From: Thermodesulfobacteriota bacterium
GTDB lineage: Bacteria; Desulfobacterota_D; UBA1144; Nemesobacterales; CSP1-2
Assembly: GCA_035559815.1 (NCBI GenBank)
Contig: DATMAT010000023.1
Coordinates: 62,001-126,000 of the forward strand
DNA: 64,000 bases
Direction: 5' to 3'
The stretch's first letter is position 1. Each line of letters starts with the position of its first letter. The notes under the pieces are model-generated. The model made no database searches. It was not told the origin of the DNA and saw only the letters and a program-made list of their open reading frames with translations. A program made the position numbers and the translations under genes. Positions 2,317-63,824 of this stretch are shown piece after piece.

Positions 2317-3753
2317 ATGGAATACGAATCCGTGATTGGATTAGAGGTTCACGCTCAACTTTTGACCGAATCTAAAATATTTTGCTCTTGCTCCACAAAA
2401 TTCGGGGCAAGACCAAACTCCCAGGTCTGTCCTATCTGTCTGGGGATGCCCGGGGTCCTGCCGGTATTGAACAGGAAAGCACTCGAATATGCCATTCGTG
2501 CTGCCCTGGCTACAAACTGTGAAATATCCTATAAATCCAGATTTGCCAGAAAAAATTATTTTTATCCCGATCTTCCCAAAGGGTATCAGATATCCCAATA
2601 TGAGGAGCCACTTTCGACTAACGGTTGGCTGGAGATCGAATCAAACGGCTCAAAGAAAAAAGTGAGGATAAGGAGGATTCATCTGGAGGAAGATGCTGGA
2701 AAGCTCATTCATGAAAACTCAAGAGATAGGAGCTTTGTGGACTTGAATCGAGCGGGTGTACCTCTAATCGAGATTGTAAGCGAGCCGGACATTTCCAGCT
2801 CCGAAGAGGCGGTTTCATATCTCAAGAAACTCCGCTCCATCCTCATTTATATCGGGATTTGCGACGGCAATATGGAGGAGGGCAGCCTCCGGTGCGATGC
2901 CAATGTGTCCGTTCGCCCTAAAGGGACTAAGGAATTGGGCACCAAGACCGAGATTAAGAACGTCAATTCCTTCAAATTTGTCCAGAAGGCACTGGAATAC
3001 GAACTGAGAAGGCAGATCTCTTTACTGGAGGGCGGAGAGAGGGTGAACCAGGAAACTAGGCTCTTCGATTCCGCACGCGGCGTCACGTTTTCCATGCGCT
3101 CAAAGGAGGAGGCCCATGACTATAGATATTTCCCCGACCCGGACCTGCTTCCGGTGCAGGTGGATGTTAAATTAACCGAGGAAATTAGAAATTCTCTTCC
3201 CGAGCTTCCCGATGCACGGCTTCGAAGATTCGTAGATGAATATAATATCCCCATTTATGATGCCGGCGTTCTCACCGCATCAAAGGATGTTGCCGATTAT
3301 TTCGAGGAATGTTTGAGGTATTATAATAAACCAAAGACTGTAAGCAACTGGATAATGAATGAGGTCCTGAGAGAGCTAAAGGGCGAGGAAGAGGGAATAA
3401 AGGCCTTTCCAGTCTCGCCGGATAAACTTGCCGAGCTGCTTAAGTCGATAGACGATGGCACGGTAAGCGGAAAGATGGCAAAGGACGTTTTCGCCGAAAT
3501 GGTCTCGACCAGAAAGGCTGCGGCGGAGATTATTGCAAAAAAAGGGGTCAAGCAGCTTAGCGACCATTCGGAGATCGAGAAGCTAGTCCATGACGTTATC
3601 GAGAAGAATCCGGAAGAGGTATCTAGATACCGGGCCGGGCAGGAGAAGCTGTTGGGCTTCTTTGTCGGAGAAATTATGAAGGCTACCGCGGGCAAGGCAA
3701 ATCCCAAGCTGGTCAACGAGGTGCTGAGGAAGAAGCTATCTCAGTCGGAATGA
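2317..3753 (+). CDS. gatB: Asp-tRNA(Asn)/Glu-tRNA(Gln) amidotransferase subunit B
   Basis: This 478-residue GatB is the tRNA-binding kinase subunit of GatCAB, which amidates misacylated Glu-tRNA(Gln) or Asp-tRNA(Asn). It opens with the canonical YESVIGLEVHAQLLT and has the paired CxC and CxxC zinc cysteines (FCSCSTKFG, CPICLGMPG), then LPKGYQISQ, DLNRAGVPLIEIV and EIKNVNSF. The C-terminal GatB/YqeY helical domain occupies about residues 330-478. The length is normal for the family. gatC and gatA lie together about 13.5 kb downstream, so the subunits are encoded at two loci. Presence of the trimer suggests indirect synthesis of Gln-tRNA and/or Asn-tRNA. Confidence 0.97.
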   Translation: MEYESVIGLEVHAQLLTESKIFCSCSTKFGARPNSQVCPICLGMPGVLPVLNRKALEYAIRAALATNCEISYKSRFARKNYFYPDLPKGYQISQYEEPLSTNGWLEIESNGSKKKVRIRRIHLEEDAGKLIHENSRDRSFVDLNRAGVPLIEIVSEPDISSSEEAVSYLKKLRSILIYIGICDGNMEEGSLRCDANVSVRPKGTKELGTKTEIKNVNSFKFVQKALEYELRRQISLLEGGERVNQETRLFDSARGVTFSMRSKEEAHDYRYFPDPDLLPVQVDVKLTEEIRNSLPELPDARLRRFVDEYNIPIYDAGVLTASKDVADYFEECLRYYNKPKTVSNWIMNEVLRELKGEEEGIKAFPVSPDKLAELLKSIDDGTVSGKMAKDVFAEMVSTRKAAAEIIAKKGVKQLSDHSEIEKLVHDVIEKNPEEVSRYRAGQEKLLGFFVGEIMKATAGKANPKLVNEVLRKKLSQSE

Positions 3754-8062: not shown

Positions 8063-8560
8063 ATGAGAAGGTTTATAGCCATCACAGCTTTAGCTTTAGC
8101 AGTATCAGCGTTGGGAGGGGCAAAGGCGTGGAGCGAGCCCACCTTCTTCAAGTCGTTCGGCTCAGTGGGATTTACCGACACTCAGATAGCCAAGGTAAAC
8201 GTAACTAACTTAAGCAGCATCCAAGCCCCGCCGGGCAAGACGTGTCAGGTGAGCGCGATATTCATGTACTCGGACGGCGCGATATTCTCGTCGGATGGGA
8301 GTCCGATTGGCCTCGGCGATGTATTCAATGGTTCCAGCGTGGACGTAGAGGCGGGAAAGACCGTTTCTTTTGACCTCAACTTGAACGGCATACTCAATGG
8401 CTCCACCCGCGCCCGGATAGTCCCGATGGTGCTTACGCTCGGCCCCTGCAGGAAGTCCCTGAGCCTAAGCCTTGAGGCGGTTGACAGCGCCAGCTCCAAG
8501 ACCCAGTTTGTCCTTTCGCCAGGTGACCCGTATATCCCGGCTCAGCCGTTTCAACCCTAG
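8063..8560 (+). CDS. Secreted protein of unknown function
   Basis: This 165-residue protein starts at the ATG at 8063, chosen because AAGGAGG lies just upstream and because the next residues form a clear signal peptide (MRRF then a hydrophobic ITALALAVSALGG stretch, cleavage probably after KAWS). A longer frame opening at 7976 lacks a ribosome-binding site. The mature part is beta-rich, has two cysteines (in KTCQVSAI and LGPCRKS) that may form a disulphide, and ends in a Pro-rich tail. I do not recognise the family. It stands alone between two repeat-rich gaps. Confidence 0.72.
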   Translation: MRRFIAITALALAVSALGGAKAWSEPTFFKSFGSVGFTDTQIAKVNVTNLSSIQAPPGKTCQVSAIFMYSDGAIFSSDGSPIGLGDVFNGSSVDVEAGKTVSFDLNLNGILNGSTRARIVPMVLTLGPCRKSLSLSLEAVDSASSKTQFVLSPGDPYIPAQPFQP

Positions 8561-8600
8561 CCCCATTTAATGAGTCTAGTATGTAACCCCCTGTCCTTTC

Positions 8601-8622
8601 TCCTCCCCCTTGAGGGGGAGGA
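8601..8622. repeat. TTGA-looped hairpin repeat (copy B)
   Basis: TCCTCCCCC and GGGGGAGGA form a 9-bp perfect stem around TTGA, followed by TTAAGGTGGGGGTG. It lies just downstream of the secreted-protein gene. There is no T-run, so it is not a standard terminator; it is better read as a member of the same repeat family as 7432-7449. Confidence 0.72.
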
Positions 8623-8733
8623 TTAAGGTGGGGGTGAAAACGGGGACCTGGGTTACAGAATCGAAAAAGGGGACGAAACCCTTTTTGGGTTACCAGTTAT
8701 AAGTTGATGGTTTAGTGAACCGCGTCAGCAAAG

Positions 8734-9228
8734 CTATACGCTCTTACCATAGAAGTCTTCAATAAACTTTCTCAAGGACCTCTCAGCATTCTCTCTATGC
8801 GTGCCTGCCCAGTAGATTCTGTTACAGGTATTACAGCGCTTGAATTCGTCCTGGGTTTTCCAAACGTAAGGAGGGACTTTTTCGGTGAGTAACTCCTTTT
8901 TAACCTCTTCCAGTAAAGTATTACATCGAATACACCTGGTAAAGGCACTTTGCAGTGTCCTTAGTTCAAAGACTTGAAGGAACTCGATGAGTTGCTCGTC
9001 CAAATGGTCGCTCCAGATTAAGAGACATTCATTTACTCCTTTCCTCTTTGCTATCGACCTGTCCCTGGTAAGTATTACCCGACCTTCTATAAGGGCCCGC
9101 CGGGTCAGCCAATCGTCATCTATATCTTTATCGTATTCTACGTCTATACCGGCTAGCCTGAGCCACTTGGCCAATTTACCTAGCATCGAGTCGGCGATGA
9201 AACGGGTTTCAGTAGCCTTTCTATTCAT
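8734..9228 (-). CDS. Mut7-C RNase domain protein
   Basis: This 164-residue protein matches the Mut7-C (formerly DUF82) family, a PIN-like nuclease fold fused to a zinc ribbon. The N-terminal part has the conserved acidic motifs (FIADSMLGKLAKWLRLAGIDV and VILTRDR). The C-terminal part carries two CxxC knuckles (CIRCNTLL and CNTCNRIYW), which should bind one zinc ion. RNase activity is proposed for the family from fold and from the MUT-7 protein; the substrate is unknown. It is a single gene flanked by repeat-rich gaps. Confidence 0.85.
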   Translation of the reverse strand: MNRKATETRFIADSMLGKLAKWLRLAGIDVEYDKDIDDDWLTRRALIEGRVILTRDRSIAKRKGVNECLLIWSDHLDEQLIEFLQVFELRTLQSAFTRCIRCNTLLEEVKKELLTEKVPPYVWKTQDEFKRCNTCNRIYWAGTHRENAERSLRKFIEDFYGKSV

Positions 9229-9451: not shown

Positions 9452-9576
9452 AAGGTAGGCAGGGGTAAATTCCACGACCGAAGCAATCTGACTCAAAGGT
9501 CATTCTGGAGAGCGGAATCTAAAGAAAGATTTCTCATTTTACTCGGAATGACACCCGAAGGAAAAGCCTGTTTATT

Positions 9577-11616: not shown

Positions 11617-13752
11617 TTAAGTTGACCAACCATTTCCGGTGATTAGATGAAGGAAGAATCGGTTTATCTTGGCTCCTATCCTGTCAAAAAGGGAAGGATT
11701 GTTTATTATCTTCACATTGTAGAATGAAGGACATAGCACGGCGGCATGGGCAATTTCTCCACACAAACCGCAACCGACGCAGGATTGTTCGATGTGAGCG
11801 ATGGGGTCGTCTCTGAGAATAGTGGGGCTTTCTTTCAAAGTGAGAGAGGGACAGCCGTTATATCTCATACAAGAATGGTCCCCGGTGCATACCTCCGGGT
11901 CCACACCCAGCCTTGCCTGTACCACTCGTCTTCCCGACTCCAATCTTTTTTTCACTATTACTTTTTCTTTTCTACCTTTTTCCAGTTGGCACTCCCCACG
12001 GGAGATTATTACCCTTAGCCCTTTGTCGATTGCATAGGCTTCGCGAAGCGCATCCATCGATTCCCCGAGGTCGTACGGATTAACCCTTTTAATCCATCTG
12101 ACTCCCGCTCCTCTGAGTGCCTTTTCGATGTCCATCATGACCCCTTCTTGCCTCATGTTTTTTCCGGAAGCGGGGTTCTCGTGATGACCGGTCATGGACG
12201 TCCAGAAGTTCTCCAATATTATCAGTATGGCGTTCTGGTTGTTGTAAACCGCATTTGAAATGCTGGTGGTAAGCCCGCTGTGCCAGAAAGTGCCGTCGCC
12301 CATGAACGAGATTACTCTCTTGTTTGCCATCCTGGAAAGGGCCCCTGCCGATGCCAGCCCGATTCCCATTCCGGTAATCGAGTTGCTGAGGTCAAACGGC
12401 GGAAGCCCGCTCATGGAATAGCAGCCGATATCGGATGCGTAGTAAGATTTACCGTAGTCCTCTTCCAATATTTTAATCGCCGTAAAAATAGGTCTTTCCG
12501 GGCAGCCGGTACAAAATACCGGATTTCTCTTTATGACTGGTTCCTTCAGAAGGTTCGCCGCCTTTTCTTTGTGCTTTTCTATGTATTCGCTCTTCTCTCG
12601 TATTTTTTCTTTTTCATAACCGGGAGAGGTGTTTTTAAGGAGGAAACTGCCGATGCCCTTTATTATACTATCTGGAGTGTATTCTCCGGCGGGAGGAAGA
12701 ACGTCTTTGCCAAAAATTTCCCCATCAAACTTTGCTCTCTGAGCAATTGCCCTTATCGCTTCTTCGATTAGATTAGGCATTCCCTCTTCTACAATCAGGA
12801 CGGCCTTTTTCCCTTGGAGAAAGTTTGCTATTTCTTCTGGAACAAGTGGATGTGTTACATTGAGGTTAAGAATGGGAATTCCGCTTTCACCGTAGATGTT
12901 GGCTTCACCCAGTATATATAGGCATCTCATCAGAGAGTTAAATATCATCCCGTGGGTTATTATTCCCAGGTTGCGGTCATCTCCATTTATGGTTTCGTTT
13001 AGTTTTCTTTCCAAGATAAATTTTCTTGCCGCGGGTATCCTTTCCTCAAACTTTTTTCTGGATTGTTCAAGCGTAAATGGAGGAATAGGGATTTTTTCTA
13101 TGTCAGTAATTAAATTCCTCAAGGGATTGTTCATGCTTATTTTTGGCTCCGCGTTATCTTTACAGGTTATCTTGCTCCGTATATGTGCAATTCTGGTAGA
13201 TAAAAGGAACATAACCGGCATGTTCGAGTATTCAGAAAGCTCGAAGCCCGCTTCTACCATATTTGCTAGGTGTTGTAGGTCTCCTCTTGGGTCGATTACC
13301 CCCATAGTAGATTTGAGAGCGAAGGGAAACGCCCTCTCGGCGACTAATGTGCTGTCACAGCCGTAATCCTCACCCACCACTACCATGGCCCCGCCGGTGA
13401 CTCCAGATGAGCAGATATGGGATAAAGCATCCGACGCCACATTGGTTCCTACTATCTTCCAATTAACTGCTCCACGGATCGGGTAGCTGATGGAAGCGGA
13501 GAGAAGTGCCGCCGCCGCTGCTTCATTTCCGGAGCAATCGAAGTAGACTCCTTTGTCTTTTAGTATGGAATCGTAGGCATCGGATATGACATCGATTAGG
13601 CCAGCGGTGGGAGAACCAGGATAACCACCTAGGTAGCTGACACCCGATTGAAGAAAGGCCTTTAATATTACCAGAGGAGTATCACCGTATAGTATTTTCC
13701 CTTTACCGTAGTTTAACTGTTGCAGTATTTCTCCTGAGTAACCACCACCCAT
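11617..13752 (-). CDS. iorA: Indolepyruvate:ferredoxin oxidoreductase, alpha subunit
   Basis: This 711-residue catalytic subunit binds thiamine diphosphate and iron-sulfur clusters. An N-terminal pyrimidine-binding domain (YLGGYPGSPTAGLIDVI) is followed by a central linker and a TPP-binding domain with FCTGCPERP and the GDGTFWHSGLTT...ENFWTSMTGHHENP motif. The C-terminus has ferredoxin-like cysteines (CTGDHSCMRYNGCPSL and CVGCGLCGEIAHAAVLCPSF); the first set is less regular than usual. With iorB downstream it should form the complete enzyme for catabolism of aromatic amino acids, or work in the synthetic direction under reducing conditions. Confidence 0.95.
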   Translation of the reverse strand: MGGGYSGEILQQLNYGKGKILYGDTPLVILKAFLQSGVSYLGGYPGSPTAGLIDVISDAYDSILKDKGVYFDCSGNEAAAAALLSASISYPIRGAVNWKIVGTNVASDALSHICSSGVTGGAMVVVGEDYGCDSTLVAERAFPFALKSTMGVIDPRGDLQHLANMVEAGFELSEYSNMPVMFLLSTRIAHIRSKITCKDNAEPKISMNNPLRNLITDIEKIPIPPFTLEQSRKKFEERIPAARKFILERKLNETINGDDRNLGIITHGMIFNSLMRCLYILGEANIYGESGIPILNLNVTHPLVPEEIANFLQGKKAVLIVEEGMPNLIEEAIRAIAQRAKFDGEIFGKDVLPPAGEYTPDSIIKGIGSFLLKNTSPGYEKEKIREKSEYIEKHKEKAANLLKEPVIKRNPVFCTGCPERPIFTAIKILEEDYGKSYYASDIGCYSMSGLPPFDLSNSITGMGIGLASAGALSRMANKRVISFMGDGTFWHSGLTTSISNAVYNNQNAILIILENFWTSMTGHHENPASGKNMRQEGVMMDIEKALRGAGVRWIKRVNPYDLGESMDALREAYAIDKGLRVIISRGECQLEKGRKEKVIVKKRLESGRRVVQARLGVDPEVCTGDHSCMRYNGCPSLTLKESPTILRDDPIAHIEQSCVGCGLCGEIAHAAVLCPSFYNVKIINNPSLFDRIGAKINRFFLHLITGNGWST

Positions 13753-13846
13753 ATCTCCTCCGGAAAATGACGGGTTAGAAACTAATCTACCAGAAAACGA
13801 CCAGGGATACTAGATAAGATTCAGGCGTGGTTTGTATCGTATATTG

Positions 13847-14308: not shown

Positions 14309-14471
14309 GGGTATCAGTGTTTATGCCATTAACTTACCTGTTCAGTTATCTGGCAAATAAAATAAACCATGGCATCTAGGTAATTGTCTATACTCTATGT
14401 TTAAATAATAACCCTTAATTCAGTTTTTCGGTTGTTTTAGTAATGATAATGACAATGGAACCCGGCTTACA

Positions 14472-15182
14472 TCATTTGTAAGTACTTTTTAGCAGGGCAA
14501 CAAAGATGTCTGCCTGTCTAGTGGGTTCGGGAATTCTATAACCCCTGGTACAGGCTAGTGTAATCCTTACTGCGGTTCTCAAATCTATTTTATTCCCAAT
14601 GGAAACGAAGACCGGCTTTGTCCCCTTTTTAGTTCTTAGCACGGCACCGATGTTGCTCCCGTCACTCGATATCAACGGAGTCCATACCCCTTGGGTCTCA
14701 CCCGGTTCTTTATACCTTCCATAGAGCTTTTCTTTGGCCACTCCGATGGTCGGTATATCCAATAGGATCCCGACATGGCTGGCAATCCCCAGTCCTCGCG
14801 GATGGGCTATGCCCTGACCGTCGATCATGAGCAGGTCCGGTTTACTTCTTAGATTTTTAAAGGCCTCAATTATTGCCGGTCCTTCCCGGAAGGCCAGGAG
14901 TCCAGGGATATAGGGAAACTGTTCTTTTGCTACCGCGGAAACACGCTCGACCTCTTCAAGCCCGGGATAAGAGAAGACTATAATTCCACACACCAGCTTT
15001 TCCGCACCGGACAAGGGGGCTAAGTCTATACCGGCTATCGTTCTTATCTCTTTAAACTGATTATGAGTGATTACCCTTTTTTGAAGCTCCCTCTGTATGG
15101 CCTCGGCTTCTTGACGAGAGGGAGGGGTTTTGTAATCCAGGTAATTTGGTATTTTCCTTTCAGTGGAGTTTATAGATTTCAT
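14472..15182 (-). CDS. nfi: Endonuclease V (deoxyinosine 3' endonuclease)
   Basis: This 236-residue protein nicks DNA one base 3' to deoxyinosine. It contains the family motifs IRTIAGIDLAP (catalytic Asp), FPYIPGLLAFREGPAIIEA (with the PYIP wedge), DLLMIDGQGIAHPRGLGIASHVG (second acidic residue plus His) and VAKEKLYG. Length is typical. Its first 23 bases overlap the end of the small upstream gene at 15160-15411, so the two are probably translationally coupled. Confidence 0.95.
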   Translation of the reverse strand: MKSINSTERKIPNYLDYKTPPSRQEAEAIQRELQKRVITHNQFKEIRTIAGIDLAPLSGAEKLVCGIIVFSYPGLEEVERVSAVAKEQFPYIPGLLAFREGPAIIEAFKNLRSKPDLLMIDGQGIAHPRGLGIASHVGILLDIPTIGVAKEKLYGRYKEPGETQGVWTPLISSDGSNIGAVLRTKKGTKPVFVSIGNKIDLRTAVRITLACTRGYRIPEPTRQADIFVALLKSTYK

Positions 15183-32720: not shown

Positions 32721-32794
32721 AAATTCGTGGGTTAAAATCTTAGTTGACTTTAAGAAAAAATGGAGGTATAAAGAGGTGGACAAAACTTTATGGA

Positions 32795-32900
32795 AAATGG
32801 CAAACTACTTGAAAAAGTAGGACCGCAAAGCTACTGGCCTAAGTTGCTTGTCGGAAAATGTAGTCATGGTATTCAAGCAATAGGGCAGCAGGGTTGCCCA
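32795..32900 (+). ncRNA. Cyclic-di-GMP-I (GEMM-I) riboswitch aptamer
   Basis: The conserved GEMM-I landmarks occur in order: GGCAAAC, a CTACTT/AAGTAG hairpin closed by a GAAA tetraloop (32805-32820), GGACCGCAAAGC (consensus GGACGCAAAGC, one extra C), GGCCTAA (the tetraloop receptor side), a TTGCTTG/CAAGCAA stem (32844-32850 with 32874-32880), and GGGCAGCAGGGTTGCCC. The base equivalent to G20 of the V. cholerae Vc2 aptamer is G, which favours c-di-GMP over cyclic AMP-GMP. It lies about 150 bases upstream of pilB. A TTCCCC at 32912-32917 could pair with the GGGGAA ribosome-binding site at 33041-33046 as a translational switch (inference). Confidence 0.87.
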
Positions 32901-33048
32901 ACTGAGTATGGTTCCCCCTCGGAAATACTTCCTTCATTCCTAAGGTCTTTGCGGTTGGCAAATACTGATTCGGCAAGTAAACAACATAGTTCTCACGGAG
33001 AACCGCTGGCGTTGATTTTCATAGCAAAAAATCTAAAGGTGGGGAAAT

Positions 33049-44575: not shown

Positions 44576-44650
<75 letters not shown>

Positions 44651-44677: not shown

Positions 44678-45772
44678 TCATTTTCCAAAATTTTCATTGC
44701 TACGGAAATTGCTACGGATTTGATTGAAATTCGCCAAAATTTCTACTGCTTCTTTAACACTTTCCTCTGGATGGGAATACCTCTCGGTAACTTTCACTGT
44801 TGAATGTCCTAATAACTTTGTAATGGCATGAAGAGGAATTCTAGATTCTACTAGACGAGTTGCGGCTGTATGTCTTAGGTCGTGAAATCTTAGATTCTCT
44901 ATGCTAGCTTTCTTACAAGCTGTCTTGAAAGAGTGCTTGAGCCAGTTTAAATGGCTGTCTATTCCTTTAGGGCTTGGAAACACAAATTCACTTCCTCCTG
45001 ATGTCAGTTTACGTTCTATTAAAATAGTTCTCACAACTGGATTGACCGGAATCTTCCTTGTCTTTTTGCTCTTGGTGTTAGTTTGGGGCAGGGTAATAAT
45101 GTTATGTTCAAAATCTATCCACTCCCATTTGAGCCCCAGTATCTCACCTTGGCGCATCCCGGTATTTAAAGCAATCCGAATAACGTCATGTAGATATGTA
45201 GGACTAGTTTTAAGCAACCGTTCTTCTTCCTCAGGGGTTAGGATTCTCTCTACTAGGTTGTGCACCTCCAACATTCCTGATAGGGTTACCGGATTCCTCC
45301 CAAAGAATTTACCTTTTCTATAGGCAAGGTTAAAAAGATTTTTCACTACCGATAACTCACGATTTACTGTAGCCGGTTTAGCATCCTGGTTTAACCGGAG
45401 CTTTTTATAAGCGTCTATATCATCAGAACTGATTTCATTTAGCTTCCTACCATTAAAAAGTTTATTAAAGTGGTCTAACGCTTGTCTAGTTCTCCTAAAT
45501 GAACGGTTTTGTTTTACGTCTCTGATATGCTCAATGTACTCTTGAGTAAATTCCGATAGCGTAGGAATGCGGTTAGTTATCATATCCAATTCCCCTAACC
45601 GTACCTGACGTTTCTTTTCTTCAAGCCTAACTTGAGCGGCAGCTTTTGTTATCATCCCCACTTTGCCTACGGATTCCCATTTTTCCTTACCGTTCCCCAA
45701 AGAATAACGAATGTACCAATAAGCAGTCTTCGAACCGTCTTTGTTCTTTATCCAGCGTTTAAATACTCCCAT
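44678..45772 (-). CDS. int: Tyrosine recombinase (integrase of the element)
   Basis: This 364-residue integrase has an N-terminal SAM-like core-binding domain (about 70-155) and a C-terminal catalytic domain with the Arg of ALNTGMRQGEILGLKW, the HxxR of RFHDLRHTAATRLV, the later His in LLGHSTVKVTERYSHP and the tyrosine in that RYSHP motif. The N-terminal KDGSKTAYWYIRYSL fits an arm-binding domain. Its 3' end lies 28 bases from tRNA-Thr, as in elements that integrate at tRNA 3' ends. Confidence 0.95.
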   Translation of the reverse strand: MGVFKRWIKNKDGSKTAYWYIRYSLGNGKEKWESVGKVGMITKAAAQVRLEEKKRQVRLGELDMITNRIPTLSEFTQEYIEHIRDVKQNRSFRRTRQALDHFNKLFNGRKLNEISSDDIDAYKKLRLNQDAKPATVNRELSVVKNLFNLAYRKGKFFGRNPVTLSGMLEVHNLVERILTPEEEERLLKTSPTYLHDVIRIALNTGMRQGEILGLKWEWIDFEHNIITLPQTNTKSKKTRKIPVNPVVRTILIERKLTSGGSEFVFPSPKGIDSHLNWLKHSFKTACKKASIENLRFHDLRHTAATRLVESRIPLHAITKLLGHSTVKVTERYSHPEESVKEAVEILANFNQIRSNFRSNENFGK

Positions 45773-50449: not shown

Positions 50450-50764
50450 ATGCCCGAGCTTAAACCACTAGAAACCTTTCGTATAAACCAAGAACAGACG
50501 GAGTTTTTGGATCAAGAGCTGCTTACAGAGCTTTATGAGATTGAAAAGGAAATAGCTGAATCAAGGAGAGAACGGGACGAAGTTGCTAGACCTGTCCACA
50601 AGTGTTGTACGCCCATATCAGAGGAAGGAGATAAACTAGATAACCTTATTCACAAGCATTGCTCTGTCATGAGAAAACTCAGAATTTTATGGACTCACAA
50701 TATATTGGAAAAAACCATGTTTTACAGGCTATACGGGGGTGTAGAATTGAAAATAACGGATTAA
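50450..50764 (+). CDS. Coiled-coil hypothetical protein of the element
   Basis: This 104-residue protein has a strong GAAAGGAGG ribosome-binding site before the ATG. The first two thirds are a charged helix (DQELLTELYEIEKEIAESRR) and it holds three cysteines (HKCCTPI, KHCSVM). I do not recognise a family. It is the last gene before the cassette region. Confidence 0.65.
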   Translation: MPELKPLETFRINQEQTEFLDQELLTELYEIEKEIAESRRERDEVARPVHKCCTPISEEGDKLDNLIHKHCSVMRKLRILWTHNILEKTMFYRLYGGVELKITD

Positions 50765-51157
50765 ACCACCAAAAGGAGGAGAGCAGACACCAGCTTTTTT
50801 GTGGCAAGATCAACCAAAAATGTCTCGACCTCGGTATTGCCCATTTGCAGCGGATGGCGCTTTAGATTCGACGTTAGACAGGCTCATGGCTCACAACAGG
50901 GTTGTAGAAAAAGATATATCGCTTGATTCAGTAGATGTAAGTTTCCTCAGTGCGCTTTGTAGTTTTTTCGGTGGTAGCTTCACGTACGAGGACAAGAAGC
51001 CTCGTTTTTGCATTTTTCCATGCTCTTCTTCTACGTATTGACTAGAAATTTCATTTGTCGTAGTATCAGTTACAACGGCAAATCGCAGTATAACACCCCT
51101 ATTTGGGAATTATATTGCATTTTTTCCAGTCTAATTATTAGTTATGTCGGCACAGCC
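50765..51157. other. Non-coding stretch ahead of the first cassette gene
   Basis: About 390 bases without a convincing gene. GTTAGAC at 50873-50879 fits the GTTRRRY core of an attC site, and TGTCTCGA about 50 bases earlier could be a decayed partner arm, so the left cassette boundary may lie here. Frames of 68 and 80 codons run through but have no domain or good start. Confidence 0.45.
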
Positions 51158-51949
51158 ATGAACACGGAAAATCTCACCCAATGGACCAGCCTCAGGTTTG
51201 ACTATTACCTGGCCGGGCGTACTCTACTCTTTACCAATCAGATGCAGTCAGGCGTTCTCATGCTTGGTTATGCGATAGAGGCCCACTTCAAACACCTCAT
51301 TAGTTCCGATGGAAGCATAGAGAGAAAGTACAGCTTTGGGCACGACTTTTCCGGAACGTTCAATGTGCTGCGGAATGCGGGCTATCTCCAAGACGTGGAT
51401 GTGAGTTCAGATTTTCTGGATTTTGTTGAGGATAACTTTGATCGAAGATATCCGAGTCAAACGAATCGAACGATCAAAAGGGCAAATTCAAGGGGGCGGG
51501 CCGTTTCGATGGCTCCCGACGTGATCATTCCCTACGACGATTTCATTCTACAGCTGGATCTGTCACTGACAAACGTATTCGGCACGCCCGAAGCGTCAGT
51601 ATTGATGCTGGGAATTCAAAACATTGATTGCACCGGCGGTCACTTTTTCTTTCATTGCAACTATGCGGCAGTAGCGAGACTAGATATGGGGTTGGATCTC
51701 TGTGAGCAGCATTTGGAGTTACTGAAACAGCGAGAACCTGGGATCTATCAAATCAACCTTGACGCTCACCGGACACGCAAGAAACTCCTTGAAGACCGAG
51801 AAGAACTACTAAACTCGTCGAAGTCGAGTATACGTGTCAGGCCCCATGGTGGTTTTGATGCGGCTCTCAAAGCTGCGGCATCTTTCGTGTACCCAGGGAA
51901 AATGGTACGACTGAGCGACGGTACGGCAATTCATGTATCTAAGTACTGA
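51158..51949 (+). CDS. HEPN-like protein in a gene cassette
   Basis: From the ATG at 51158 this is a 263-residue protein; a longer frame from 51008 adds a hydrophobic N-terminus of uncertain reality. The N-terminal helical part (WTSLRFDYYLAGRTLLFTNQMQSGVLMLGYAIEAHFKHLI, then GHDFSGTFNVLRNAGYL) resembles HEPN-type domains, often found in toxins and defence proteins; the classical RxxxxH motif is not clear. It ends four bases before an attC site in the same orientation, the layout of an integron cassette. No strong ribosome-binding site is visible. Function is unknown. Confidence 0.65.
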   Translation: MNTENLTQWTSLRFDYYLAGRTLLFTNQMQSGVLMLGYAIEAHFKHLISSDGSIERKYSFGHDFSGTFNVLRNAGYLQDVDVSSDFLDFVEDNFDRRYPSQTNRTIKRANSRGRAVSMAPDVIIPYDDFILQLDLSLTNVFGTPEASVLMLGIQNIDCTGGHFFFHCNYAAVARLDMGLDLCEQHLELLKQREPGIYQINLDAHRTRKKLLEDREELLNSSKSSIRVRPHGGFDAALKAAASFVYPGKMVRLSDGTAIHVSKY

Positions 51950-51952
51950 ATG

Positions 51953-52076
51953 GCATAACACGCGTTGAAGTTCGCTAGGGCGCTTCGCACCCTCCGCCCG
52001 ACTACAAAAAGCGTCACGCCTTTTGCGTTCACAAAAGCTGCGCCTCTTTTTGTAGCAGCTTAGCGCGTCGTTAGGT
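51953..52076 (+). other. attC: Integron attC site 1
   Basis: The left core GCATAAC and right core GTTAGGT bracket a 124-base imperfect palindrome. L'' CGCGTTGAAG pairs with L' CTTAGCGCG leaving an unpaired G, the usual extrahelical base. The inner part has CTACAAAAAG/CTTTTTGTAG and CTTTTG/CAAAAG stems. Length and structure fit a long attC; it follows the HEPN-like gene directly. Confidence 0.8.
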
Positions 52077-52107
52077 GTCGCAATGCAGATGTAGAGCGGA
52101 GTAAGAG

Positions 52108-54126
52108 ATGCCACTCAGCCCCCAACAAATACAGGCAGCTGAAAACCTCCAACATACTGCCGCACACGATACGAGCAATCAGATAAGGTTGATTGCCGGA
52201 CCTGGAACAGGAAAATCTTTTGCAATCGAGGAGAGAGTCTACTGGTTGCTGAGAAACCAGGTGAGGCCCAGTAGAATATTCGCGGTGTCGTTTACCAGGG
52301 CATCCGCTCGCGATCTTAAGAATCGGATCGAGGGGTACTGCACGGCAAGGGGAATCCAGACAGCTTCATCTGTTAGTGTTACCACGCTCCATTCACTTGC
52401 CTTGCGTATCCTACATGCAGCAGGACTTCTTACTTACCCGAGTGATCCTATGGTTATGGATAGGTGGGAACTCAAGGAAATATTTGATGCTGAGTTCTCT
52501 CATACCAGCGGAATCAGGCCGCTAAGATGTGAAGAGATAAGGCGTGAACATGAAGCATTTTGGAGCACTGGCCAATGGGGACCACCGAACTACATTCCTC
52601 CAAATCCACCAATAAATCAAAATGAACGGAATATCTTTTCCCAATTCCATACTCCTAGGACTCAGACGTACTCTTGTGTGCTACCTGGTGAAATCGTTCG
52701 TCAATGTGTGAGTAACATAGCCAGTGGCGTGCTTGATCCTGTCAATCAGTTAAGTATTCAATATCTAATTGTTGACGAATTTCAAGATTTGAATCCTTGT
52801 GATCTGGAATTCGTCGATCATTTGATACAACGTGGTGTGGTCACTTTTGTTGCTGGTGACGATGATCAAAGCATTTACTCTTTTCGTTTTGCCTCACCGG
52901 AAGGCTTACAGCGTTTTACAACTCAATATGCCGCAGCTGGTGACTATAGAATTAGCGACTGCTTCAGATGTACTCCCTCTGTAGTACAGGCCGCCAGTTC
53001 CGTGATAGGCGGTCATCCCCTCCCAAATCGTATTCCTAAGACATTGAACTCGCTTTATTCAAATGCAGCACCGCCTGTTCAAGGTTTAGTAGAGCGCTGG
53101 AACTTCCCAAGTGGTATTGCGGAAGCTCAAGCCTTCGCAGACTCTTGCCGTGACCTTATTCAGGCGGGAATGCCACCTCGCGAGATTCTCATTTTGTTGA
53201 GTAACACACGCGTGTTGGAGCGTGACCTTACAGCCGCCTTAGATGCATTACAAGTGCCGCACGAACGGCCAAAGACCGCCAGTTACATCGAATCTCCCGA
53301 GGGAAGACTTGCTCTGACTTTACTAAGGATCGCTTGCAACCAGAATGACCACGTGGCCCATCGTAGTCTCTTAGGCTTACTTCCCGGCGTCGGCGTCCGA
53401 ACTTGTAACAACATTGCGGATAAGGTCGTATTGAACAATTTAAGCTTCGTGAACCTTTTCTATTATCCTTTGCCAGCAGGGGTTTTCTCTGGACGCGAGT
53501 CAAACGCTCTCAATAATGCACAGAGTATGACCGCAGCCGTTACTGCATGGCAGACCTCAGACACGCTTTCTCAGCGTGATCCAGACATTCGGACTATCCT
53601 TGGGAACCACCAAGGACCTATTTCACAACAAGCGTGGTCTGACGCTACATCCCACTTGCCACAAGATATCACCCCAGAAGAACTTAGGGATTACTTATGG
53701 GCAGACACAGATGAACAGGAAGCAGCCATTTTGGAGAGCGTCTATCAAAGACTTGGACTCCCTATTCCCCCACATGGCGTACTTCCACAGGGAGTCAGAA
53801 TAATGACGATGCATGGGGCTAAAGGCCTCAGTGCGAGGGTTGTATTTATACCGGGCCTCGAGGAGGAAATATTCCCTGGTCAATGGCGAATACCCTACCC
53901 CGGCCTAGTACTCGAAGCTGCTAGGTTACTCTATGTCTCTGTTTCACGTGCTCGCGTAGCATGTATTTTGAGCTACGCAAGGAATCGAATCATTTACGGA
54001 CGTCATCGTAGGCATACTCCTTCTCGTTTTACGCGTTCCTTGGGCGGCGCTTTCACTTTTAGGCAAAGTGGAGGATTGTCAGCGAACCAAATAAATCACA
54101 TTGTGTGGGAATGTTCTCAACTGTAG
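52108..54126 (+). CDS. UvrD/Rep-family superfamily 1 helicase in a gene cassette
   Basis: This 672-residue SF1A helicase has motif I AGPGTGKSFAIEERV, motif Ia AVSFTRASARDLKNRI, motif II LIVDEFQDLNP, motif III VAGDDDQSIYSFRFA, motif IV CFRCTPSVVQAA, motif V MTMHGAKGLSARVVFIPGLEE and motif VI RLLYVSVSRARV. It starts 38 bases after the cassette junction of attC 1 and ends 40 bases before attC 2, so it is the gene of a cassette of about 2.2 kb, unusually large. Stand-alone UvrD-like helicases often take part in anti-phage systems; here that is only inference. Confidence 0.9.
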   Translation: MPLSPQQIQAAENLQHTAAHDTSNQIRLIAGPGTGKSFAIEERVYWLLRNQVRPSRIFAVSFTRASARDLKNRIEGYCTARGIQTASSVSVTTLHSLALRILHAAGLLTYPSDPMVMDRWELKEIFDAEFSHTSGIRPLRCEEIRREHEAFWSTGQWGPPNYIPPNPPINQNERNIFSQFHTPRTQTYSCVLPGEIVRQCVSNIASGVLDPVNQLSIQYLIVDEFQDLNPCDLEFVDHLIQRGVVTFVAGDDDQSIYSFRFASPEGLQRFTTQYAAAGDYRISDCFRCTPSVVQAASSVIGGHPLPNRIPKTLNSLYSNAAPPVQGLVERWNFPSGIAEAQAFADSCRDLIQAGMPPREILILLSNTRVLERDLTAALDALQVPHERPKTASYIESPEGRLALTLLRIACNQNDHVAHRSLLGLLPGVGVRTCNNIADKVVLNNLSFVNLFYYPLPAGVFSGRESNALNNAQSMTAAVTAWQTSDTLSQRDPDIRTILGNHQGPISQQAWSDATSHLPQDITPEELRDYLWADTDEQEAAILESVYQRLGLPIPPHGVLPQGVRIMTMHGAKGLSARVVFIPGLEEEIFPGQWRIPYPGLVLEAARLLYVSVSRARVACILSYARNRIIYGRHRRHTPSRFTRSLGGAFTFRQSGGLSANQINHIVWECSQL

Positions 54127-54166
54127 TGTGTGGAAACGGGGTGGGGTCTTGACATGAGATGTTTTC

Positions 54167-54239
54167 ACCTAACCACCGGGTGAAGCTGACGACGAACAGC
54201 TTCGCTGTTTCGCCCGCAGCTTATCCGGGGCGTTAGGGG
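54167..54239 (+). other. attC: Integron attC site 2
   Basis: ACCTAAC (54167-54173) and GTTAGGG (54232-54238) are the outer cores. CCGGGTGAAGCTG pairs with CAGCTTATCCGG with an unpaired G (extrahelical base), and AACAGC/GCTGTT closes the terminal hairpin over TTC. This is a textbook attC of about 73 bases, in the same orientation as site 1. Confidence 0.92.
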
Positions 54240-57816: not shown

Positions 57817-58380
57817 ATGAGAATAAGGGTATTCAGAGAAAGATGGGAAAACCTGGAAAAAGAAAACGGACTGCTCCGGTTCTTCATACTTTTACTAATT
57901 ATCGGAATTCTAACTGAAGGGGTTTTTATGCTTATTTCTTTAAGGAAGACCACAGTCAATATTTATGTGCCTGAGTATCTGGAAAAGGATTTTTCCGTAA
58001 AAAACGGGTTGCCTTCTGAGGATTATTTCGAGCAGTGGGCGCTATCTCTCATTCCCTACATCGCTTCTTTCACTCCGGAAAGCGTTGACTTCAACATAAG
58101 GACGTTTCTCTCATACGTTCATCCCAATAACTACGGTTTGATCGAAAATAAACTTATAAGTCTAGGGGATGAGATAAAAAGTGTTGGAATTTCTCAGGCG
58201 TTCTTCTCCCAGGAGGTTTCCACATCCGGCAAAGAGGTAAGCGTCATGGGAAGACAGGTGCGGTTTGTGGGGAAAACTCCGACAAGCGATGAGATAGTAC
58301 GCTATATCTTTTCCTTCAAAGTTGAAGGGGGAAAACCCTTGATAGAGAACATTAATGTCACTACGGATTCCGGAAGGTGA
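57817..58380 (+). CDS. traE: TraE conjugation protein
   Basis: This 187-residue inner-membrane protein has one N-terminal transmembrane helix (LLRFFILLLIIGILTEGVFML) and a periplasmic domain with TVNIYVPEYLEKDFSV and FTPESVDFNIRTFLSYVHP, matching the TraE/VirB5-like F-type assembly factor. Order traL-traE-traK is conserved. Confidence 0.9.
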   Translation: MRIRVFRERWENLEKENGLLRFFILLLIIGILTEGVFMLISLRKTTVNIYVPEYLEKDFSVKNGLPSEDYFEQWALSLIPYIASFTPESVDFNIRTFLSYVHPNNYGLIENKLISLGDEIKSVGISQAFFSQEVSTSGKEVSVMGRQVRFVGKTPTSDEIVRYIFSFKVEGGKPLIENINVTTDSGR

Positions 58381-58387
58381 AAGCAAG

Positions 58388-59086
58388 ATGAGAATGAATA
58401 GTATTAAGCTAGTAGTTATGGTTGTGAGTATTTTTCTCTTAGCAAATAAAGTTTGGGCTACAACCGTAATCGAAGCAATCGACGAAGATAAAAGCATATT
58501 CGTAACAGTGTCAAGCCGGGACATAAACCGTATAGAAATGCCCGAGCCTGTAATTGAGGCTCTATCATCCAAGGCTATAGATGTAAAAATCAAGGAGCGA
58601 AATATATTTGTAAAAGTTCCCGATTCACATCCTGCCGAGCTTTTTATCTCTACAAAGAAAAAAAACATTTCTCTAATCCTGGTTCCCAAAGACATTCCTG
58701 CTGAAACAATCGTGGTAAGAGATACAAAAGATGGCCTTTCTACCTCTAGCTGGAATTTCGTAGAAGATAATTCCTATGAAGGGACAATAAAAAAGATCAT
58801 GCTCTTCCTCTTTAAGAGAAGCGCCCCTTCCGGATATATAGCCAGTTATCCAAAAGATGAAGGCTGGATGCTAAACGGAGTTAGTTTAAGAAAGGCTTAT
58901 GTGATTGAGGGACCCGTATTTCAAGGGGAGTTGTATGAAATCAAAAATATAAGCTCAGTCGAAGTAAATCTGAGCGAAGAGATGTTCTACCAAAAAGGAA
59001 TCATGGCAATAAGCATTGATAAATATGATCTTGCCACAGGTGAAACCTGCAAATTATTCATCGTAAAGAGGTCGCGACATGATTAA
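58388..59086 (+). CDS. traK: TraK conjugation protein (outer-core secretin-like)
   Basis: From the ATG at 58388 there are 232 residues with a signal peptide (KLVVMVVSIFLLANKVWA) and a beta-rich body (VTVSSRDINRIEMP, VKIKERNIFVKVPDSHPAELFIS, LILVPKDIPAETIVV) like TraK/VirB9-type outer-core proteins. Another ATG eleven codons earlier overlaps traE. TraK contacts TraB and TraV. Confidence 0.88.
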   Translation: MRMNSIKLVVMVVSIFLLANKVWATTVIEAIDEDKSIFVTVSSRDINRIEMPEPVIEALSSKAIDVKIKERNIFVKVPDSHPAELFISTKKKNISLILVPKDIPAETIVVRDTKDGLSTSSWNFVEDNSYEGTIKKIMLFLFKRSAPSGYIASYPKDEGWMLNGVSLRKAYVIEGPVFQGELYEIKNISSVEVNLSEEMFYQKGIMAISIDKYDLATGETCKLFIVKRSRHD

Positions 59087-60509
59087 TCGGAGATTAAAAG
59101 GAAGACGGGGAAAGGTCCTTGGTATAGGTCTTATACTGCTGGGGACTATTGTAGTTATAGCACTTCTCACATCGGATGAAGAAGAAGGGGCGCGTAAAAG
59201 AGAGCAAGAAAAGACCAGGGTTTTAAAAACGGCTGATTTAGAGAAGGAAAAATGGCGTGCCTCTGCCGAGAAGGAAATAGACAAACTGAGAAACTCCCAA
59301 AAAGAACTCCTTAAGGAAATCAAATCCCTTAAAGAGAAGCTCTCGGCAAAAGAAGAAAAAGAAAGCTCCCCACCGCTGCCGCCTTTATCGCCTGGAAAGA
59401 ATGTATTTTCTCCGCCTCCCCCACCACCACCGCCAAGCTTTGAAAATGGAAAAGGAACGCTTGAAAAGATTCCCTCTCAAATCCGGGTATTTTCTCCTGA
59501 GACTGCATCCATAGTTTCAGGCCAGGCTCAAATCAGTCCCCAAAAAGAAGAGTCTACTCTAGGCAAAGGAAATTGGATACCATCCGGAAGCTTTGTGAAG
59601 GGAATACTGCTTAGTGGTCTCGATGCGCCTACAGGGGTTCAGGCAAGGGGTAACCCCTATCCGGTGCTGATTCGTTTATCAGAGCCGGCTAACCTTCCAA
59701 ATCTAAGAAGACTCGATGTAAAAGAGTGTTTTGCCACAGGCGGCGGATACGGTGATTTAGCCTCAGAACGGGCATACATAAGACTTGAGACTATCTCCTG
59801 TGTTCTTAAGTCCGGGAAGGTAATCGATACCCAGGTAAAAGGGTACGTTGCGGGAGAGGACGGAAAAGTAGGGATTCGCGGAAGGCTTATTTCCAAGCAG
59901 GGTCAGTTTTTATCCCGAGCACTTCTTGCCGGGTTTGCCAGCGGAATAGGACAGGCGTTTAGCTCCTTTAGTACCGTTACCAGTATCGGCGCCGGGGGCA
60001 CGGTAACGGTAGGACCCGATGAATTAAAGGATATCGGCCTTGTGGCGGCGGGAGGAGGCGTCTCAAGGGCTGCTGAGAAACTGGCAGATTACTACCTAAA
60101 ACTTGCGGATGAGGTCTTTCCGGTCGTGGAAATAGATTCGGGCAGGACTGTAGACGTCGTGGTGCTTGAAGGAAAAGAGCTAACTCCCAGAGGGAGGCTT
60201 ATTTCTGGCGAGGCCAGAGACTCAATTCCAGAAGATACCACTACTTCTTTCTATGAATCGGATGAAAAAACGGAGCCTTCGGAGATAGATATATCCGCTT
60301 TCCCCAATCTTCCCCAGGAAAATTTGCCTGATTCTATCGGTAGTGACGTGAAACCAAAAAAACTGGGTGTTTTTCAGGAAGGAAACATTACTAAAAAACC
60401 GGATGAGGAAAAATCAAAAGAGAGGAGTTTTCTTAAGGAAGATAAACAAGGAAAAAGTAGGAACCTGGAGTTAGAAATTCTAAAAAAGCTAGAAGAAGGG
60501 AAAAGATGA
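59079..60509 (+). CDS. traB: TraB conjugation protein (VirB10-like)
   Basis: TraB spans both membranes in the F-type core complex. The 476 residues have one transmembrane helix (about 14-31), a coiled-coil (38-90), a Pro-rich linker with a run of PPPPPPPP (about 95-120), then the VirB10-type barrel: WIPSGSFVKGILLSGLDAPTG, ECFATGGGYGDLASERAYIRLE and GIRGRLISKQG. A charged tail follows the core, longer than usual. The gene overlaps traK by eight bases. Confidence 0.93.
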   Translation: MINRRLKGRRGKVLGIGLILLGTIVVIALLTSDEEEGARKREQEKTRVLKTADLEKEKWRASAEKEIDKLRNSQKELLKEIKSLKEKLSAKEEKESSPPLPPLSPGKNVFSPPPPPPPPSFENGKGTLEKIPSQIRVFSPETASIVSGQAQISPQKEESTLGKGNWIPSGSFVKGILLSGLDAPTGVQARGNPYPVLIRLSEPANLPNLRRLDVKECFATGGGYGDLASERAYIRLETISCVLKSGKVIDTQVKGYVAGEDGKVGIRGRLISKQGQFLSRALLAGFASGIGQAFSSFSTVTSIGAGGTVTVGPDELKDIGLVAAGGGVSRAAEKLADYYLKLADEVFPVVEIDSGRTVDVVVLEGKELTPRGRLISGEARDSIPEDTTTSFYESDEKTEPSEIDISAFPNLPQENLPDSIGSDVKPKKLGVFQEGNITKKPDEEKSKERSFLKEDKQGKSRNLELEILKKLEEGKR

Positions 60510-61048
60510 AAACTAAATTAGCATTTTTTATCACTTTAGCTCTTTCAATTTTAATTTTTCAGGCCTGTGGAGGACCAAAATACGGGTGTTCCTACGGTGA
60601 GGGGGTATCTTGCGAAAGTGTATCCACCGTATATAAAGATTCGCTTTCCGGTGAATTAGAGAAGAAAAAGGAAGAAGAGAGAAATCTGAGAGAACTGGAA
60701 AAGGAAAAAAGACCGAGAAAATTAGGGACTGGTGAAATTTCATATGTAAAAACTAAAGGAAAAAACTGGAGCAGCTCACAAGCTTCAAGCTCGTCAGCCA
60801 GTACCGCCATTAGCTTTAATCCTGGTCTGAAATCTGATGAACCCAATGTAGTTCCCCTTCGCACTCCACCGGATGTGCTGAGGGTCTGGGTCGCTCCCTG
60901 GGAAGATAAAAACGGAGCGCTCCACGGAGGAAACTACATCTATCTCGTCGTGAATTCCGGAAGATGGATTTTTGGAAATAAAGAAGTTGAAGAGTCAGGA
61001 AATATTATACCTTTGGAGAGTGTAACCGATGGGAATACAGCAGAATAA
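60506..61048 (+). CDS. traV: TraV lipoprotein
   Basis: TraV is the outer-membrane lipoprotein of the F-type core (VirB7-like). The 180 residues have a lipobox FQAC (Cys21) followed by the TraV cysteine pattern (CGGPKYGCSYGEGVSCESV), a charged coiled stretch and a C-terminal LRVWVAPWEDKNGALHGGNYIYLVV segment typical of TraV. It overlaps traB by four bases and traC by twenty. Confidence 0.92.
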   Translation: MKTKLAFFITLALSILIFQACGGPKYGCSYGEGVSCESVSTVYKDSLSGELEKKKEEERNLRELEKEKRPRKLGTGEISYVKTKGKNWSSSQASSSSASTAISFNPGLKSDEPNVVPLRTPPDVLRVWVAPWEDKNGALHGGNYIYLVVNSGRWIFGNKEVEESGNIIPLESVTDGNTAE

Positions 61049-63479
61049 GCTTAAGGAGGGAATTAAGCGTGAACCCCTTTCGGACTGGCTTCCCTATATA
61101 GCCTACGAAGAGGGTCTTTATCTACTCATGGACGGATCTCTTGGATTCATATTTGAGATAAACCCGCTTCTTGAAGCAGGCTCCGATACTCACAAGATTA
61201 TTTCAAGACTCTACAACTCAGAGTTTTTTCCCACAAATTCAACTATCCAGTGGCATGTTTTTGCATCTGAACGGATTTTTCCGCAGCTCGAGATCTGGAA
61301 GATGAGCCGTTCGGCCAATTTTAAAAGATTTACCGAGGAAAGAGCAAAGCTTTATACGGATAACATTAAGGATATTTTGGGCCATCCGGTAAGAGATTTC
61401 AGATTCCTGGTCTCTATAAAAATCCCCCATCCTTTGAAAAAGAAAGGGTTTCTTCATGAAGAGGACATAGACCTTAGCCGCTGGGATGGATACACAGAAG
61501 AGGTGAACAAAATCAGAGAATCTGTTCAGGGAATACTTGAGAGCGCATTTCTTCTACCCCGTGACATTCCGCCTGAGTCTCTAATTCCTCTTTTAGTGGA
61601 GCTTTTTAATCCCGGGCATCCTGAAGACAGTCTTTCATGGGACAGGTATGAGAAGAATGAAGAAATCAGGCATCAGATCATAGATTATGAAACAAAGATA
61701 AGAATCACAGAAAGAGGGATTTTCCTTAATCATTACGAGCTAAAGAGCCTTAGCCCAAGAATCTATCCGGAAGTCTGGGATATGTACAGCTTCCACGAGC
61801 TCTTCGGAGATTCAATTCAATCGATGAGGCAAATTCCTTCTTATTTTCTCCTTAGCGCAAACTTTATAATGTTGGATAAGAACAAATCAAAGTCGGCTCT
61901 TACAGCAAAAGCATCTATTGTGAAGCATCAGTCGTTTGGGTTTATTACACATTTTATTCCTCGCCTGAGACGGAAGGCCGAGAACTTTGATATTATCATG
62001 CAGGAGTTCGAAAACGGGGAAACGGCGATAAAAGGATATTTGAACCTCTTTGTTCGTGGAAAAACCCCGAAAGAAACAGAGAAATTAAAAGAAGTAGCAG
62101 GAGGAATCTGGAGGGCTAAAAACTTTGAAATCCAGGAAGACCCTTACATTATGCTCCCACTTCTACTCCAGAGCCTGCCGCTGGGGCTTGAGCCTTTCCA
62201 GGACAAGCTTATCAAAAGAGCAAAAACAATACCGAGCTCGGCGGGAGCCGCTCTTACCCCGGTAGCTATCGACTGGAAGGGATCGAGAGGAGGACCGCTT
62301 ATTTTTATCTCAAGACGTGGACAGATTATGCAGGTGGACTTCTTTAAATCCTCTTCGAATTACAACTGTGTGATGTTTGCCCAGAGCGGGTCGGGAAAAT
62401 CCTTTCTTACCTCCGATATTATCTCCGGCTACCTTGCAGAAGGTGCCCAGGTATTTGTTGTGGATATCGGGCGGTCATACGAGAAGCTCTGTAAGTATAT
62501 AGGAGGGGATTTCATAGTATTTAGTGAGGATTCTAATATCTCGCTTAACCCCTTCTCGAACGTTGTAAATATAAAAGAGGACATGGAGCTTCTAAAACCC
62601 CTCCTTTGCCAGATGGCCAGTCCCTCAAAAGTCCTCTCAGACCTTGAAAAATCCTATGTGGAGAAAGCAATAAAGGAATCGTGGAATGAAAAGGGACAAG
62701 AGGCTGAAATTGATGATGTGGTGAGAAGGCTCGAAGCCATGGAAGACCCTTATCACCGGGCAAAAGACCTGGCCAGGATGCTCTATCCGTTCTCAGAGCA
62801 TGGACAATACGGAAGGTTCTTTACCGGAAAAGCAAGCATATCATTCGGAAACTCCCTTACCCTCATAGAGCTCGAAGAGCTAAAGGGAAAGCCCGAGCTC
62901 CAGAGCGCAATGCTTCTACTTATCATCTATCACATATCGCGGGCGATGTATCTCGGAGAAAGAGGAAGAAAGAAGCTTGCGGTGATAGATGAGGCCTGGG
63001 ACCTGCTGGGAGGGAAAATGGCCGCAGAATTTATCTCTCATGGTTACCGGAGGGCAAGAAAATACGGAGGGAGCTTTATTTCAATCACTCAGAGTCTTCT
63101 CGATTTCTATAGAGTGGGTTCGGTAGGGGAAGCTATAACAGAGAATTCCGCCTGGATGCTGATGCTGAGACAAAAGGGGGAAAGTCTTGAGGAGATAAAG
63201 AAGGGACGAAAGCTAATGCTTTCATCATATTTCTTGAATCTAGTCGAGAGTCTTACCACAGTTCCGGGGAGATATTCGGAGGTTTTCATCTACAATAGCG
63301 AAAGGGGAATGGGCCTCGGAAGATTTGTAGTAGACCCTTTCTCATACTGGCTCTACACAACCAAGCCGGATGAGGTTGCGCTTCTTAACAGATTGATCCG
63401 GGATGGATTAAGACTCGAGGAAGCAATTGGGAAATGTATTGAGGCCACAACGGATGAAAGGCAAAAGAGACAAGGGTAA
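61029..63479 (+). CDS. traC: TraC conjugation ATPase (VirB4-like)
   Basis: TraC energises pilus assembly. The 816 residues open SDWLPYIAYEEGLYLLMDGSLGFIFEINPL and contain Walker A FAQSGSGKSF at about residues 450-459 and Walker B KLAVIDEAWDLLGGKMAAEF near 650. FITITQS-like FISITQSLLDFY follows. Length is right for TraC. The start overlaps traV by 20 bases. Confidence 0.95.
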   Translation: MGIQQNKLKEGIKREPLSDWLPYIAYEEGLYLLMDGSLGFIFEINPLLEAGSDTHKIISRLYNSEFFPTNSTIQWHVFASERIFPQLEIWKMSRSANFKRFTEERAKLYTDNIKDILGHPVRDFRFLVSIKIPHPLKKKGFLHEEDIDLSRWDGYTEEVNKIRESVQGILESAFLLPRDIPPESLIPLLVELFNPGHPEDSLSWDRYEKNEEIRHQIIDYETKIRITERGIFLNHYELKSLSPRIYPEVWDMYSFHELFGDSIQSMRQIPSYFLLSANFIMLDKNKSKSALTAKASIVKHQSFGFITHFIPRLRRKAENFDIIMQEFENGETAIKGYLNLFVRGKTPKETEKLKEVAGGIWRAKNFEIQEDPYIMLPLLLQSLPLGLEPFQDKLIKRAKTIPSSAGAALTPVAIDWKGSRGGPLIFISRRGQIMQVDFFKSSSNYNCVMFAQSGSGKSFLTSDIISGYLAEGAQVFVVDIGRSYEKLCKYIGGDFIVFSEDSNISLNPFSNVVNIKEDMELLKPLLCQMASPSKVLSDLEKSYVEKAIKESWNEKGQEAEIDDVVRRLEAMEDPYHRAKDLARMLYPFSEHGQYGRFFTGKASISFGNSLTLIELEELKGKPELQSAMLLLIIYHISRAMYLGERGRKKLAVIDEAWDLLGGKMAAEFISHGYRRARKYGGSFISITQSLLDFYRVGSVGEAITENSAWMLMLRQKGESLEEIKKGRKLMLSSYFLNLVESLTTVPGRYSEVFIYNSERGMGLGRFVVDPFSYWLYTTKPDEVALLNRLIRDGLRLEEAIGKCIEATTDERQKRQG

Positions 63480-63497
63480 ATATGCTGAGGTAAGACC

Positions 63498-63824
63498 ATG
63501 TTAAAAAGTATTCTTTCGGGATTCTTAGGAGCAGTCATTGGGGGTGCTGTTGTTGCGGGATGGCTCTACTTTTTCTCACCAGAGCTCTATATCCTCGACA
63601 TAAAGGGAATTATTGACTCTGAAAGAGAGAAAATCGTGAAAGAGATGCAAGATGAGACTATTTCTCAGGAAGAAGCAGGAAAGGAAATAAATGCCTTCTT
63701 CGATGAATTTAATAGCGTACTGAAAGAGTACAGAAAAAAGGGACAGTTAATTATGGTTAAAGATGCCGTTCTTTCAGGGGGGAAAGACATCAGCGATGAA
63801 TTTAAAGGAAAGCTTGAAGAATGA
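63498..63824 (+). CDS. trbI: TrbI-like conjugation protein
   Basis: This 108-residue protein has one N-terminal transmembrane helix (ILSGFLGAVIGGAVVAGWLYFF) and a periplasmic helical part starting YILDIKGIIDSEREKIVKEM. Size, topology, ILDIKGI segment and position after traC match F-type TrbI, thought to act in pilus retraction. It overlaps the next gene by 29 bases. Confidence 0.7.
   Translation: MLKSILSGFLGAVIGGAVVAGWLYFFSPELYILDIKGIIDSEREKIVKEMQDETISQEEAGKEINAFFDEFNSVLKEYRKKGQLIMVKDAVLSGGKDISDEFKGKLEE

Follow-up and report, generated by a model that had tools for sequence, protein, structure and literature searches.

The window analysed here is a 64,000-nt stretch of a draft genome (positions 62001-126000 of contig C23; 3.97 Mb in 79 contigs), and coordinates given without a contig or locus name refer to it. 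In a gap between a small gene of an F-type ICE, which ends at 50764, and the next ICE gene, which begins at 55122, lie two consecutive genes in the same orientation, each placed before a candidate attC site, as a preliminary description of this DNA had it. Gene 1 (51161-51949, plus strand) would encode a 262-aa protein of no recognisable family, and gene 2 (52108-54126, plus strand) a 672-aa helicase, of the UvrD/Rep type by family match. The corresponding cassettes, also read on the plus strand, would run from 51142 to 52070 (boundaries drawn from an upstream attI and the first attC candidate) and from 52071 to 54232 (boundaries drawn from the attC cores). The locus thus appears to hold attC-bounded cassettes in line with an attI, the second of the bounding sites being certain and the first probable.

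The downstream site (site 2; 72 nt, 54167-54238, plus strand) was confirmed as a real attC by every test. Its R″ (ACCTAAC) and R′ (GTTAGGG) boxes pair at 6 of 7 positions, its L arms are GGGTGAAGC/GCTTATCC, with one extra base, and crossover is expected between G54232 and T54233. It is the only match of the structural attC finder in the 64-kb window that does not look like chance, apart from the minus-strand reading of the same palindrome; none of 4000 shuffles equalled its arm score, and single-stranded DNA folding gave z-scores against shuffles of -4.3 for the bottom strand and -4.9 for the top strand. Two covariance models recognise it: R1 with 33.0 bits (E = 3e-5 for a 191-kb search space and 6.7e-4 for the whole 4-Mb genome) and R2 with 28.1 bits (E = 1.7e-4), the E-values of both coming from shortened calibrations. 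R1 was seeded with 15 attC sites, of which integrons on plasmids supplied 11, other contigs of this genome three, and locus L013, discussed below, one; R2 was built for long attC sites, as a fair test of the upstream site, and has one seed from the same genome. Neither seed set includes a site from the window. A strict initial version of the structural finder recovered neither of the two sites and was replaced, and a plasmid search with the DNA of the two sites gave no match.

The upstream site (site 1; 124 nt, 51953-52076, plus strand) begins 3 nt past the stop codon of gene 1, and from its sequence is probably, if not provably, a long attC. Its R″/R′ boxes (GCATAAC/GTTAGGT) contain the TAAC and GTTA cores, and the alignment of its middle with the dfrA1 attC (GTCACGCCTTTT..CAAAAGC.GCGCC) is better than that of any of 300 shuffles. 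Neither covariance model finds it, R2 not even when run without filters, and 80 of 4000 shuffles (2%) equal its arm score. Of the two attC sites originally claimed, then, the downstream one stands and the upstream one is weaker than was said. In the predicted bottom-strand fold, the central spacer between the R and L boxes of site 1 is largely paired (ACGCG with CGCGT); since recombination is lower in VCR mutants whose central spacer is paired (PMC2727003), low activity is predicted for this site, and the junction between cassettes 1 and 2 would recombine poorly. Both sites have their extrahelical G on the top strand, that is, a C on the recombining bottom strand, where the canonical base is G. 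In VCR, a G-to-C change at the extrahelical base cost only about 2.7-fold.

It might be supposed that both hairpins are terminators, REP-like repeats or chance palindromes that lie after two genes, and are not attC sites at all. What was found for site 1, taken alone, would be compatible with this. The pair as a whole is not at model background, however: site 1 goes unrecognised, but site 2 scores between 28 and 33 bits under the two attC models, and no other match in 64 kb is better than chance. With an attI and an intI remnant upstream as well (see below), such an explanation is scarcely credible.

No homologue of gene 1 was found in Pfam, PADLOC, NCBIfam, PDB sequences, plasmids, viral contigs or the phylum, and its predicted structure (pLDDT 37) was unusable. 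Gene 2 has relatives of 41-72% identity in Deltaproteobacteria, Myxococcota and Chloroflexota. The two genes are not always found together, which favours their being cassettes. A Desulfobacteraceae copy of the helicase gene (L013) has an attC directly after it (3208-3275; 32 bits with R1, of which this site was a seed), while by inspection the closest relative (L010, 72%) has none in that position; the helicase family is therefore found both as a cassette and otherwise. Membership of gene 2 in a Gabija system was considered and rejected: GajB models match it, but gene 1 matches no PADLOC model.

The preliminary description was wrong in seeing neither intI nor attI in the window: upstream of the cassettes, an intI remnant and an attI lie at 50783-51144. 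The former is a 5′ remnant on the minus strand (50783-51021), corresponding to about IntI residues 1-65 and interrupted by stops, frameshifts and an insertion. IntI-like peptides occur in it in the correct order (KRHPLQMGNTEVETFLVDLATKK at 50862-50794 and YIY*IKRYIFFYN at 50939-50901). The protein-level match to IntI is weak taken alone (E about 0.05), and the identification rests on DNA homology to sibling loci. On the minus strand, the remnant matches the 5′ ends of the intI genes on contigs C19 and C51 of the same genome with z-scores of 15.5 and 12.6 (0 of 500 shuffles), and together with the attI it is 73% identical over 314 nt to the 5′ part of intI plus attI in genome G005. An R′-like GTTAGAC at 50873-50879, examined as an extra cassette boundary, falls within the remnant and was set aside. 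The earlier reading holds to the extent that the window has no functional integrase, this 5′ remnant being all there is of intI.

The attI (51085-51144, plus strand; expected crossover between G51141 and T51142) is likewise identified by homology to sites adjacent to intI. It matches the C19 stretch between intI and the first cassette (z = 10.7, 0 of 500 shuffles) and other copies, on C51 (z = 23) and on C47 (z = 22). The decisive result comes from a search across the family, in which window positions 50900-51160 are 78-82% identical to sequences in G004, G003 and G005, representing three other genera (E = 1e-48 to 1e-51). When the copies are aligned, the conserved attI is seen to be about 60 bp long and to end in TAG/TTA, with TGCAGTATAA repeats in both orientations. 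Between the start of intI and the attI is a candidate cassette promoter, TTGACT-17-TAGTAT (51038-51066, plus strand). Promoter-like pairs are no more numerous in this region than in shuffles; the TTGACN-17-TAGTAT-like pair has the same 17-nt spacing in 8 of the 11 aligned attI copies of the family.

The order of features is thus a truncated intI, a candidate promoter, attI, cassette 1, a probable attC, the UvrD-helicase cassette and a second attC. This has consequences for the original interpretation, a bare attC cluster (CALIN). There is indeed no functional intI nearby, and one of the two sites, where a CALIN has at least two attC, passes the covariance models used; the label understates the locus, which keeps a remnant and an attI. 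A true CALIN would mean that a remote IntI put the cassettes at a chance secondary site in the ICE where no integron platform had ever been. That CALINs can arise by off-target insertion is recognised (PMC8618304), and two cassettes in a window with no functional intI are what it would leave, but what lies directly upstream, in canonical order and orientation (the 5′ remnant of intI, the promoter-like pair and the attI), is not accounted for; we regard this reading as very improbable. Because of these three features, all of them homologous to intI-attI regions elsewhere in this genome and in sibling genomes, the locus is better read as an integron that has lost its integrase.

The surrounding element is confirmed by its gene content and ends as an F-type ICE, in agreement with the preliminary description. 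A tyrosine integrase gene (44678-45772, minus strand), which is not an IntI (its 52 bits lie below the TIGR02249 cut-off of 265), abuts a tRNA-Thr gene (44576-44650, plus strand) identified as the attachment site: the 25 nt at its 3′ end (44625-44649) recur just once more in the genome when up to 3 mismatches are allowed, in a copy with one mismatch that lies outside the window at a distance of 114.5 kb along the same contig (C23:221105-221129). F-type transfer genes (TraE, TraK, TraB/TrbI, TraV, TraC and TrbI by family matches) occupy 57817-63824 on the plus strand, and elsewhere between the attachment repeats are TraG, TraH, TraU and a TraD-like coupling protein, next to which an HD-domain protein is encoded. 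A search for a TraI_2 relaxase was negative; this HD-domain protein is a candidate for the role. The ICE has a DnaC-like gene that was not found in relatives, so that there was no empty site for comparison. For insertion of the whole integron by a transposon, which was also considered, no shared border repeats of 9 nt or more were seen.

Other parts of the ICE, outside the window, include a BREX-type defence cluster (C23:159889-171866, L044/L045; BrxC by Pfam, its neighbours by size and order), a catabolic block that splits the transfer region (C23:127530-147369; aldehyde dehydrogenase, CoA-transferase and dehydrogenases by eye), and very large ORFs that by eye resemble toxin-complex or Rhs-type proteins (C23:191754-210833). 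Outside the ICE, the window also has a c-di-GMP-I riboswitch (32789-32901) upstream of a gene at 33049.

Taken together, these features very probably represent a decayed integron within the transfer region of an F-type ICE 114.5 kb in length. Both cassettes would have been captured at this attI while an integrase was active, after which truncation of intI would have frozen the array. The predicted promoter between the start of intI and attI may transcribe both cassette genes. The array would now move as a block with the ICE, and single cassettes would be mobile only where an intact IntI acts in trans.

The search for intI in the rest of the genome, which the preliminary description had proposed, yielded two long TIGR02249 matches, on C51 and C19, both broken: the first (444 bits) has three in-frame stops (one TGA, two TAG), and the second is truncated. 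Since every intI found in the genome is broken, cassette movement would require an integrase supplied in trans. Cell-to-cell shuttling of the cassettes by the ICE, as first suggested, would follow from their location; shuttling between integrons would need an intact IntI, which was found neither in this genome nor in the family genomes examined, although a draft in 79 contigs could miss one.

The two broken genes belong to integron loci of their own. That on C51 (L017: 6590-7540 minus strand, 13139-13198, 13769-13827 and 14443-14494) consists of the broken intI, a restriction-type gene block with an attC, and then a second attI, whose cassette looks RibD/DHFR-like by eye and is followed by a very short attC. 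On C19 (L018), the truncated intI (8340-9000, minus strand) is followed by an attI and three attC-bounded cassettes (attC at 9542, 10571 and 12448), one of whose genes is ADP-ribosylglycohydrolase-like by eye. A dispersed repeat of about 200 bp lies on both sides of the second C51 attI unit (L017:13569-13730 and 14506-14669), and also in the right half of the ICE (L045:9282-9480 and 14335-14425), with a further copy at L018:13559-13636.

Among 40 relatives, only G005 has another intI match, without about the first 95 residues; here the 3′ two thirds of the gene lie beside a REP-associated transposase on C104 (L019:7242-8006), and the 5′ side is represented by a part of the gene on contig C73. 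attI copies are more widespread, with about 12-14 over six genomes, several of them without any trace of intI. In the sibling genera, copies adjoin intI remnants of differing extent, one stopping at about residue 33, another at about 62 and a third, within an open frame of 133 aa, at about 119, and have attC sites downstream on the same strand. attC sites occur in five of seven family genomes, with up to 15 in one, and nine attI copies have an attC (E of at most 0.05) 0.4-6.4 kb downstream on the same strand, as paired by eye from tables. Cargo at the sibling loci, as named from a reading of the translations, includes a methyltransferase (L064), a cyclase-domain protein (L063) and, in L065, about 6 kb of DNA that includes a helicase/nuclease fusion.

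This distribution suggests another possibility, that the promoter-attI-cassette-attC arrangement is itself the dispersing unit, and that copies lacking intI have spread in the family (by IntI acting in trans, ICEs or dispersed repeats), one of them into this ICE. The number of attI copies, the absence of intI traces from several, the nine with a same-strand attC at such distances and the dispersed repeat on both sides of one copy would all fit. However, the copy in the ICE retains an intI remnant, which points to its derivation from an ordinary integron; the copies without intI could be integrons that have decayed further, and no defined left end was found. As an account of this locus it is unlikely, and the decay of an ordinary integron is preferred.

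Decayed integrons as such are already known, and so are arrays without an integrase that are carried by conjugative plasmids. The literature covers inactivated integrons with stable arrays well (PMC2426708, PMC12444791): some one third of intI genes are pseudogenes (PMC2426708), and inactivation of intI is widespread within the genus Xanthomonas (PMC12444791). The present loci resemble these in their independent intI lesions, attI-side platform and frozen arrays; in contrast to the chromosomal integrons of Xanthomonas (PMC12444791) and to intI pseudogenes in general (PMC2426708), the platform here is within an ICE, and there are many attI per genome, with one or two cassettes and often no intI. 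CALINs, which are regarded as degraded integrons, share with this locus attC-bounded cassettes without an integrase (PMC9024848), but the locus also keeps an attI and an intI remnant, features of which the CALIN definition takes no account, and only one of its two attC sites is certain. On conjugative elements, a CALIN has been reported from a plasmid in Xanthomonas campestris (PMC12444791). A cassette site is likewise found on an F-type element in p345-185 of Vibrio harveyi (a MOBH/MPF-F plasmid with a VCR-type attC), although that site is VCR-type, on a plasmid and in another phylum.

Less ordinary is the recurrence, in sibling genomes of this little-studied family, of promoter-attI-cargo units without an intact intI, the gene being broken at different points or absent. 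No description was found in the literature of a family with many promoter-attI-cassette units, several without a trace of intI, and no intact integrase. We would tentatively suggest that integrons in this family are mainly dispersed integrase-free units, each with a promoter, an attI, one or two cargo blocks of up to about 6 kb (including restriction-modification and helicase-type genes) and one attC. These might serve as fixed expression slots and as substrates for the integrases of other cells, with the ICE carrying one between cells. The suggestion is kept tentative because it draws on draft assemblies of seven genomes and units with no defined left boundary.

An apparent attC cluster can conceal an attI and an intI remnant, which standard tools do not seek; some elements classed as CALINs are therefore integrons that have lost intI. 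The present case puts a platform of this kind on an ICE, in a phylum represented in this analysis by 58 species genomes of a single class. It can now be asked if loss of the integrase is under selection, and if platforms without one still find use in trans; the family itself points to repeated breakage of intI while attI, promoter and cassettes persist.
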